A stretch of 49,654 nt of DNA from Thermoproteota archaeon (GTDB taxonomy: Archaea > Korarchaeota > Korarchaeia > Korarchaeales > Korarchaeaceae), in NCBI GenBank assembly GCA_030130125.1, contig JARZZM010000029.1, positions 1 through 49,654 of the forward strand, in the 5' to 3' direction. Under the pieces are notes generated by a model. That model was not told the DNA's origin and ran no database searches. It worked only from the letters and a program-made list of their open reading frames with translations. Below, one piece after another: positions 46,642 through 49,654 of this stretch (position 1 is its first letter; each line of letters begins with the position of its first letter). A program made the translations under genes and the position numbers.

Positions 46642-46768
46642 CCTGGCCTAGTACAGTGATCCATTAAAAGTGGGCAGCAGAGGTCCCGAGAATCCAATGC
46701 ATCTCCGGTCTTATCACCTGAATAGTTTCTTAGAAAAATTAAAATTTCCTAGAACGAAGGTGGGCTTG

Positions 46769-47017
46769 ATGGGAGTAAGCAAGGTCAGCAGAAAGGGGCT
46801 CACCAACGTACCCTCGAAGGTGAGGAGGGAAGCTGGAATAGAGGAGGGAGATCTCATGATATGGGAGGTGGAGGGTAGAGGGATCATAAGAGTGCGAATC
46901 GTGAAGGACCCGCTGAAGCACTTAAAGGGGAAGTACGATGATCCAGATCTAACCTACGACAGAGTTGAGGAGACTGCTGATAGTCTCATTGAGAGGGAGC
47001 TGAATGCCGGTAATTGA
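46769..47017 (+). CDS. AbrB-type antitoxin
   Basis: 82 residues from ATG 46769. N-terminal swapped-hairpin AbrB/SpoVT domain (SKVSRKGLTNVPSKVRREAGIEEGD), then a charged tail to bind the toxin. The frame runs 33 codons upstream but a TATA-like AAATTAAAATTT at 46735-46746 fits a start near 46769. Overlaps the PIN gene by 14 bases; a complete toxin-antitoxin pair. Confidence 0.8.
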   Translation: MGVSKVSRKGLTNVPSKVRREAGIEEGDLMIWEVEGRGIIRVRIVKDPLKHLKGKYDDPDLTYDRVEETADSLIERELNAGN

Positions 47018-47417
47018 GCTGGATATGCTGATCGCCTTGGTCAACAAATCGGACAAGCTGCACGAGGTGGCAAGCGGGCTGTTTCAGGCTATCGCCTCGG
47101 GGAGGTTGAAGGAAATGAAGTTAGCCTCTTCAGCCCTTCTGGAGTACGAGCTGGTGCTGAGATCCCGCGGATACGGTGAGAAAGACATTAGAGGAGATAT
47201 AGAGGCCTTCAAACTGATCCCCAACTTAGAAGAGGCCCCCCTAACATCCGAGGTGATCGTGAAGGCCTCCTCACTCAGAGAGAAGTATTTCCTCACCTAC
47301 TTCGATTCCCTGCACTGTGCCACAGCCATGCTGTATGATGGTAAAATAGTGGCCTCTGATAACGCTTACGATAATGTTCCCGAAGTGAGAAGGTTGGACC
47401 CTTCCTACCTAGTCTGA
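47004..47417 (+). CDS. PIN-domain toxin (VapC-type ribonuclease)
   Basis: 137 residues. Conserved acidic residues Asp7 (IELDMLIAL), Glu47/Glu49 (LLEYELV), Asp101 (YFDSLHCATA) and Asp119 (ASDNAYD) are all present, so the nuclease site looks intact. ATG at 47004 inside the antitoxin gene. The 286-base gap that follows holds no gene I can support, only AT-rich sequence and a TATA-like AAGTAATATT near 47678. Confidence 0.85.
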   Translation: MPVIELDMLIALVNKSDKLHEVASGLFQAIASGRLKEMKLASSALLEYELVLRSRGYGEKDIRGDIEAFKLIPNLEEAPLTSEVIVKASSLREKYFLTYFDSLHCATAMLYDGKIVASDNAYDNVPEVRRLDPSYLV

Positions 47418-47703: not shown

Positions 47704-48333
47704 GTGCCAGATACCCGGAGGTTCAGGTCCGATCTGGAGGAGCTGGCCAAGAGGATAGAGAGGAGGGGAGGTTTACCGACCGGCAGGCTGAGACCTCTTA
47801 TCGACAGGCTGACTGACCTCTACATAGCTGGGGCCGTGAAGATAAATCATTCGGCCATGGAGCTTGTGATAGCGGCTCACCTGATCATGAAGGGGTATCA
47901 GGTGGATGTGGAGGTTAAAGTGAACGACATCAGATGCGATGTGATGGGCACGAACGGGGGGAAGGTGATAGTAGAGGTGGAGACAGGCTTCGTGCCTCCA
48001 GACCATGCCTTGGATCCCGACAGTTTCTGCAGGGCGAGGATAGCAAGCAAGATCGCTAGGTATAGCCAGCACGCGGATAGATTCTATTTAGCGGCGCCCC
48101 CCACCTATCTGATGGAGATACCCCCTTTCCTCCTCACCCCGCCCCACGCTAGGTCCGAGATAGAGCTGAGGAAGTGGAAGGAATTGCTGGACAGGTATTA
48201 TAGAAATCCGCCCATACCCATGGAGCTGCTGAGGAGGGCCAAGCTCAATGGGATTCTTGTGACCTACGTAGATGAAGGTAGAGTGATAGAGCTCAGCACT
48301 GAGGCCTATCTCAACCTATTTAAGTACATCTAG
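47704..48333 (+). CDS. Possible PD-(D/E)xK nuclease-like protein
   Basis: 209 residues. A segment with helix ELVIAAHLIMKGYQVDVE, then RCDVMGTNGGKVIVEVET, has the order E...D...ExE that is close to the restriction-nuclease fold (usually ExK), so catalytic ability is uncertain. Two aromatic- and proline-rich stretches (LAAPPTYLMEIPPFLLTPP) follow. GTG start at 47704. It lies between two toxin-antitoxin loci. Archaeal conserved protein of unknown role is the safe statement. Confidence 0.45.
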   Translation: MPDTRRFRSDLEELAKRIERRGGLPTGRLRPLIDRLTDLYIAGAVKINHSAMELVIAAHLIMKGYQVDVEVKVNDIRCDVMGTNGGKVIVEVETGFVPPDHALDPDSFCRARIASKIARYSQHADRFYLAAPPTYLMEIPPFLLTPPHARSEIELRKWKELLDRYYRNPPIPMELLRRAKLNGILVTYVDEGRVIELSTEAYLNLFKYI

Positions 48334-48404: not shown

Positions 48405-48878
48405 CTAATCTAAGGACAAGGCAGGGAGGATGCACTTCCCATATGGTGAATGCTCTACTTTATCCAGGGGGAATGTCTTCACCCCAACCTCTGAGGCCAC
48501 ATCTCTCAGTTTTTGATCGAATGTAGCGAGATCCGCTCCCCTCATGACGGCTAGAGCCAGATAAAGAGAATCGTACACCGTAATTTCATACCTCATCGCT
48601 ATGCTCAGAGCCTCCATGATCAGCTCGCCTGCTGGATATACTTTCATTCTACTCAAGGATGCTGAGCAGATCCTCAACAGCCTTCCTGCACTCCTCTTCA
48701 TCGAGCTCTCCCCGAAGATTTCTCCTCCATATGGCATTGGCGGACTCTGGCAGTGCGAGATTGAGGGTGCATACCCTTTCACCACCTAATATCCAGCCTT
48801 GATGGATCTCTCGGCCTCATCGGATCCCTCCTCATCCAGCAACAGCTTAACGAGAAAAGATGAATCCAAGACTTTCAT
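48405..48878 (-). pseudogene. vapC: VapC PIN-domain toxin with two offsetting frameshifts
   Basis: From ATG 48878 the frame gives MKVLDSSFLVKLLLDEEGSD (first PIN aspartate) and hits a TAG after KAGY. A second frame then continues as GGERVCTLNLALPESANAIW and ends after DLLSILE, and a third segment (ALSIAMRYEITVYDSLYLAL, DLATFDQKLRDVA) returns to the original frame. Joined, these make a normal PIN protein of about 155 residues. The shifts are about -1 near 48788 and +1 near 48655. The antitoxin beside it is intact. Confidence 0.8.
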
Positions 48879-49093
48879 CTGCTCTCCCTGTCCTCTCTGA
48901 TGAGTCGAGCTGAATCCGTCCTTATCTTCCTTTTTCGGGCCTCTTTCCTAACTCTGTCTATTATCTCCAGTAATTCGTAGTCTCTGACCCTTTCTTCTAT
49001 GTACTTCCTTATTTCTTCGCTCCAGTTGACTTTCAGCTTCTTCATTTTCTCTTTCAGCTCTCTCGGAACCCGAACTGTGACTACCGAGCTCAT
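48875..49093 (-). CDS. vapB: VapB-type antitoxin (ribbon-helix-helix)
   Basis: 72 residues. N-terminal VVTVRVPRELKEKMKKL and WSEEIRKYIEERVRDYEL form a ribbon-helix-helix domain, and the basic C-terminal tail is the toxin-binding part. ATGA overlap with the broken vapC. With an inactive toxin it may only repress its own promoter or guard against related toxins. Confidence 0.75.
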   Translation of the reverse strand: MSSVVTVRVPRELKEKMKKLKVNWSEEIRKYIEERVRDYELLEIIDRVRKEARKRKIRTDSARLIREDRESR

Positions 49094-49211
49094 CGGTATT
49101 ACGTGATGAAATATGTTTTAAAGGAGTACGTAATGACGAATTGGACTACTAACGCGCAAACACTTGAGGCGCTGACTCAACAACATCGAGGCACTGTGGA
49201 GTCTACAGCTA

Positions 49212-49364
49212 GAATAAACCCGAAAATTGCTTTCGGGGGGATCCCCGACCTTCCGGCCGGGTTACTTCCGATCGCCCCTCCCGAGGCGACCGGAACTTCA
49301 GCGGTCAAGGCTAACCCCGACCGCCTACTCCTCCCCTTTCCCGGCAAGGAGAACTTACCGGCAG
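49212..49364 (-). ncRNA. Candidate structured non-coding RNA with five hairpins
   Basis: In the 311-base gap between two minus-strand genes, five stems follow each other (minus-strand order): 49346-49352 with 49332-49338 (7 bp); 49319-49324 with 49301-49306 (6 bp, 12-base loop); 49285-49295 with 49266-49276 (11 bp); 49255-49261 with 49244-49250 (7 bp, GGAA loop); and 49231-49237 with 49219-49225 (7 bp) followed by TTTATTC, like a terminator. Three stems contain one A-C mismatch on the plus strand that is a G-U pair on the minus strand. AAAAATAT at about 49386-49395 could be its promoter. It does not match SRP, RNase P, tRNA or C/D box RNAs that I know. Confidence 0.6.
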
Positions 49365-49404
49365 TAACTAATAAACCTTCCGTATCATATTTTTCGCAAA
49401 CTTG

Positions 49405-49654
49405 TTAAAACTTTTTGATTAGAGATGGAAGGGAGGCCGTAGTGTATAGCTGATCCCTCCTGACGCCAATCCAGACCTCTATGGCCTCCTCCACGGCTTT
49501 CACGAGGCGAGGTGTGGGTCTGCCTAGCTTTATCCCTGGGCACCTCTGATCGACGTAAACGTAGAATTCGCCCAGTTTGTGGGAGTAGTAGGCCTCCTCA
49601 CCCCTTCCATACTCAGGATTCCTGTATATCTTGAAAGGCCATATTTTACAGGCG
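49405..49654 (-). CDS. Partial unknown protein (5' end beyond the window)
   Basis: The minus-strand frame is open from the right edge of the window to a TAA at 49405-49407, giving the last 82 residues of a protein (IWPFKIYRNPEYGRGEEAYY...VKAVEEAIEVWIGVRR). No start codon is inside the window. Codon use is like the neighbours, with AGG arginine. I do not recognise a family. Confidence 0.6.
   Translation of the reverse strand, partial: ACKIWPFKIYRNPEYGRGEEAYYSHKLGEFYVYVDQRCPGIKLGRPTPRLVKAVEEAIEVWIGVRRDQLYTTASLPSLIKKF

Follow-up and report, generated by a model that had tools for sequence, protein, structure and literature searches.

A compact structured RNA is encoded on the minus strand near the end of a 49,654-nucleotide stretch of archaeal DNA (the window, meaning the whole stretch that was analysed). 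We lean towards reading the locus as the gene for a small non-coding RNA that belongs to a new, lineage-restricted family. The gene would have its own TATA-type promoter, and its product would fold into a four-way junction and work in trans as a structural RNA bound by protein. Its structure, strand, conservation, single copy and fixed position, together with the fixed spacing of its promoter box, are all supported by the data. The family is new, with no match in Rfam 15 and no paper on it in the literature that was searched; the kind of molecule, a small structured non-coding RNA, is a known one.

A structured RNA on the minus strand

The preliminary description of this locus placed a structured RNA on the minus strand of a GC-rich island, and both the island and the RNA are borne out. 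The segment 49205-49370 folds on the minus strand at -87 kcal/mol, with a z-score of -5.65 and none of 200 shuffles as good, versus a z-score of only -1.73 on the plus strand; the structure thus exceeds chance and is strand-biased. Reading the strand from an asymmetry of G-U versus A-C pairs also proved sound, and the signal becomes far stronger once relatives are included: 58 G-U and 2 A-C pairs occur among 511 pair cells from 13 genomes, which identifies the minus strand as that of the RNA. In all 13 genomes the fold z-score of the RNA strand is more negative than that of the opposite strand, by a slight margin in several short forms. A plus-strand open reading frame across the region (49103-49408) was rejected as a chance occurrence; it has no Pfam match, and the stretch changes by compensated substitutions and by indels whose lengths do not keep to multiples of three.

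Architecture of the RNA

The predicted RNA (Table 1) forms a four-way junction in which three hairpins, P2, P3 and P4, lie inside a long-range closing stem, P1. From 5' to 3' the elements are P1a, P1c (CGGG), a bulge ANA, P1b, P2, P3, P4, P1b', P1c' (CCCG), a bulge AAA and P1a'. This arrangement takes the place of the five consecutive hairpins proposed earlier, a count that had missed P1. Two of the three stems then cited for G-U pairs (49266-49295 and 49244-49261) stand. The third, at 49332-49352, does not belong to the RNA: more distant relatives have not retained it, and it runs over the start that the TATA box predicts. P2, where the window sequence has three G-U pairs, is the better third example. 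Most hairpins are capped by tetraloops. A covariance model of the long type, R1, matches the window at 49225-49342 on the minus strand (G000:C29; E 4.5e-34), although its training set includes the window's own RNA sequence.

Table 1. Coordinates of the RNA, its parts and its flanking signals in the window
Feature	Position	Strand	Basis or remark
YkgJ-like gene, 3' part, cut by contig end	49405..49653	-	directly upstream of RNA in 13/13 genomes
TATA box TTATTA, within GGTTTATTAG	49369..49374	-	putative own promoter of RNA
Predicted RNA, ~125 nt	49223..49347	-	R1 match and structural alignment of 13 homologues
P1a 5' strand UUGC	49344..49347	-	pairs with GCAA 49227-49230
P1c 5' strand CGGG	49340..49343	-	pairs with CCCG 49234-49237; invariant 13/13
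Conserved 5' bulge AAA (family: ANA)	49337..49339	-	homologue alignment
P1b 5' strand GGGGA	49332..49336	-	pairs with UCCC 49238-49241
Hairpin P2, 11 bp, UUAG loop	49300..49325	-	135/136 pair cells standard
Hairpin P3, 13 bp, GNRA loop (GGGA)	49266..49295	-	127/133 pair cells standard
Hairpin P4, 7 bp, GNRA loop (GGAA)	49244..49261	-	90/91 pair cells standard
P1 3' strand UCCC CCCG AAA GCAA	49227..49241	-	includes conserved 3' bulge AAA
TTTT, possible termination signal	49223..49226	-	T-rich stretch after RNA in long-type genomes

Covariation among the homologues supports this architecture. Two size classes, long (~125 nt) and short (~95 nt), were modelled separately, as MAFFT does not align P3 and P4 correctly across them. 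First, in a MAFFT alignment of the eight long forms that was not fitted to the structure, 91.9% of cells are paired, a fraction reached by 0 of 500 shuffles and falling to at most 59% when partners are slid by 1-3 columns; both sides have changed in 10 pairs, and P2 is 100% paired. Second, against a phylogeny-preserving null for the long type, in which substitutions are redistributed over the tree, 12 compensated pairs (P1a included) are observed versus a null mean of 3.7, and the paired fraction is 0.90 versus 0.64, with 0 of 1000 replicates as high in either measure. The check for covariation in relatives that the preliminary description had called for is thereby answered, and compensatory changes beyond phylogenetic expectation place the sequence among structured non-coding RNAs. 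Third, a structural alignment of all 13 homologues, made by hand and thus leaning towards the structure to which it was fitted, serves as supporting evidence only, with 497 of 511 cells paired and compensated types at 27 pairs; these include seven pair positions in P2, ten in P3 and six in P4. In P1a, UUGC/GCAA becomes CUGC/GCAG or GGGC/GCCC in relatives. The P1c pairing is invariant, hence without covariation support, and in short forms with only five Cs P1 could pair in another register.

Distribution and genomic context

Homologues of the RNA are present in 13 of 16 genomes of the same genus. The eight long forms were recovered by blastn among 101 genomes, in which all matches fell in eight of these 16; the more distant matches (L007-L009) cover the island alone and not its flanks. 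The five short forms (G005, G009, G010, G011 and G012) were found by synteny, downstream of the ykgJ-like gene, and share the promoter box of the long form, the closing element CGGGANAGG ... CCCCCGAAAG and three hairpins. A short-type model, R2, scores them at E 4e-25 to 2e-27, matches that follow by construction as the model was built from the same five sequences; the independent R1 scores two of them, at E 2.5e-4 and 0.01. Across 394 genomes from 252 genera, R1 and R2 match these 13 only, with one copy each. No homologue was found in the 378 genomes outside the genus, in scans run with strict filters that remote relatives could have escaped. A weak R1 match in a distant genome (G068, L019; E 0.03) was dropped, as on reading it looks like 23S rRNA, and pattern matches in a viral contig (L071) and in G007:C137 lack the fold and were set aside as chance. 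No phage DNA similar to the RNA was found.

The window's last kilobase contains, in minus-strand order, the end of a CxxCxxCC (YkgJ-like) gene, the RNA island, vapB and a damaged-looking vapC. The YkgJ-like gene lies directly upstream of the RNA on the same strand in all 13 genomes, and its homologue at L003:1716-2222 matches PF03692 (E 9.8e-06). This strict position makes a link to the ykgJ mRNA possible. The main rival to an independent gene is accordingly a structured 3' element of that mRNA, whether a 3' UTR, a stabiliser or a small RNA processed from the 3' UTR, and we consider it unlikely, though to be taken seriously. Besides the shared strand and adjacency, it draws on the promoter box overlapping the end of the ykgJ-like reading frame in some genomes. 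However, such an element would have no need of the TATA box that precedes the first stem base by 26-29 nt in 13 of 13 genomes, the 5' and 3' ends of the RNA pair with each other, and the ykgJ-like gene is retained in G002 and G006 without the RNA.

These two genomes are 98-99% complete, and the RNA was not found in either; since the neighbouring gene is kept there, the RNA is dispensable or replaceable in them. The third genome without a detected RNA, G013, is only 70% complete. In G006 (L034) the RNA is cleanly missing and a convergent gene for a 209-aa protein adjoins the ykgJ-like gene directly. The G006 YkgJ-like protein, at 72% identity, is nearer to that of the window's clade than are those of more distant RNA-bearing genomes. 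Such patchy presence, with a clean absence, would also fit an RNA element that is selfish or mobile, or what remains of one, caught between two convergent genes. The RNA occurs once per genome at one syntenic position and shows compensatory evolution over the long term, and neither a protein gene nor repeat ends were seen, all of which makes that origin quite improbable.

Downstream of the RNA, vapBC occurs in the window and three close relatives, with vapB on the RNA's strand, which might suggest a cis-acting leader or riboswitch. The RNA is kept regardless at the other nine loci, where vapBC was not found and the next gene in eight of nine is the convergent 209-aa gene. Since the downstream gene varies, the RNA is no single gene's leader, and regulation of vapBC is excluded as its conserved role; we give a vapBC leader very little credence. 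The vapC gene itself looks interrupted in the window (48405-48880, minus strand), where only the C-terminal part lies within a 126-aa reading frame, and also in L004 (two reading frames of 64 and 70 aa); L003 and L005 carry intact 140-aa genes, with a PIN domain in that of L003. The 209-aa protein (47704-48333, plus strand) is conserved in the genus and convergent with the RNA. Neither Pfam, with the threshold relaxed to E 5, nor NCBIfam gives a match for it; by eye only, its motifs (VEVETGF...) look nuclease-like. A second VapBC-like pair lies nearby at 46670-47417 on the plus strand, with AbrB-type and PIN-type reading frames, again judged by eye.

Promoter box and predicted transcript ends

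The TATA-like element noted upstream in the preliminary description is conserved in 13 of 13 genomes, where TTATTA stands 26-29 nt before the first base of P1a. This spacing is the usual distance from TATA box to start in archaea, so the predicted RNA would start with P1a. The RNase P and SRP RNAs of the same genome have, by reading, T/A-rich boxes at a similar distance. The 5' end in Table 1 was set from the TATA spacing and the 3' end at the TTTT after the closing stem. The ends proposed earlier are wrong, and so are two of the five hairpins: the one at 49332-49352 spans the predicted start, and the one on the 3' side is not conserved. The latter (~49219-49237) is absent in most relatives; the T-rich run said to follow it holds for the long types. 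What is conserved at the 3' side is CCCGAAA, plus the short T-rich run in long-type genomes. The T-rich signal is weak in the short type, where termination is less clear; in four of the five short forms the closing stem ends at most ~10 bases from the stop codon of the 209-aa gene.

Proposed role

Transcription from the RNA's own TATA-type promoter would begin near 49347 on the minus strand, and the transcript would fold into a compact four-way junction with its 5' and 3' ends paired together. Judged from sequence comparison, the RNA would be a structural or protein-bound one, as its compact junction and its invariant, bulged closing helix suggest. It may act in trans as the scaffold of a ribonucleoprotein or as an RNA that sequesters a protein, and the invariant closing element, CGGGANAG / CCCGAAA, may be a binding site or a site of tertiary contact. 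Two features favour this role: the nucleotides conserved most strongly are those of the bulged closing element, and no single-stranded segment has the length and constancy that a guide or antisense sequence would need. Unpaired segments that are conserved reach ~6 nt at the most, and they are not the same in the long type as in the short.

Among the small RNAs of archaea, guide and antisense RNAs are the most common, and a guide function had been suggested for this locus. Pairing of the RNA to rRNA, tRNA or mRNA, be it as a C/D, H/ACA or other guide, is nonetheless improbable, and the suggestion is not upheld. The conserved segments are too short and variable, no Rfam sRNA match rises above threshold, none of the 13 homologues has a RUGAUGA C box (CUGA occurs in 11, inside or beside stems), and ACA is found in only two of 13, at no conserved place. 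A protein-bound structural RNA remains the reading that we prefer. A further, tentative thought, which we hold to be possible but doubtful, is that the family represents an archaeal RNA class hitherto unrecorded, confined to one deep-branching genus, with the junction and bulged closing helix forming a ribonucleoprotein or catalytic core without counterpart in other archaea.

To our knowledge, few non-coding RNA families are known that are specific to deep, mostly uncultured archaeal lineages. The evidence here is unusually clean, combining covariation, strand, promoter-box spacing, synteny and two size classes, and therefore offers a defined target of 95-125 nt for expression and pull-down tests. 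The two near-complete genomes without the RNA provide a natural comparison for its role. Taken as a whole, the preliminary description was partly confirmed in what it observed and supported in its interpretation.

Comparison with known RNA classes

Rfam 15 gave no match at the gathering cut-off in the window or at loci L006, L007, L041 and L042, in keeping with the earlier suggestion of a new family, and permissive scans returned chance matches only (for example CRISPR-DR53, whose 18.9 bits fall short of the cut-off of 45). The RNA was not described in any paper that the literature searches brought up. RNase P RNA (RF00373) and archaeal SRP RNA (RF01857) were rejected as identities, because these genes lie elsewhere in the same genome and score above the Rfam cut-offs there, rnpB at C3:4374-4661 (E 7.6e-51) and SRP RNA at C39:21100-21412 (E 3e-40). 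Both, like the window RNA, are archaeal RNAs of stable structure that have T/A-rich boxes upstream, but neither matches it in sequence or structure. ARAGORN called no tRNA or tmRNA. Like the tRNA cloverleaf, the window RNA has four helices at a junction and paired ends; unlike it, its arms are 11, 13 and 7 bp long, without T or D loop motifs. Archaeal C/D and H/ACA guide RNAs are likewise small, TATA-driven and non-coding, with conserved bulged elements, whereas the window RNA lacks the required boxes and guide segments and forms a four-way junction. Orphan RNA families, such as the 104 candidates of PMC2864571, differ in that the window RNA has no Rfam 15 match (those candidates being compared via Rfam only) and belongs apparently to one archaeal genus. 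It resembles them in that covariation was recognised before function.
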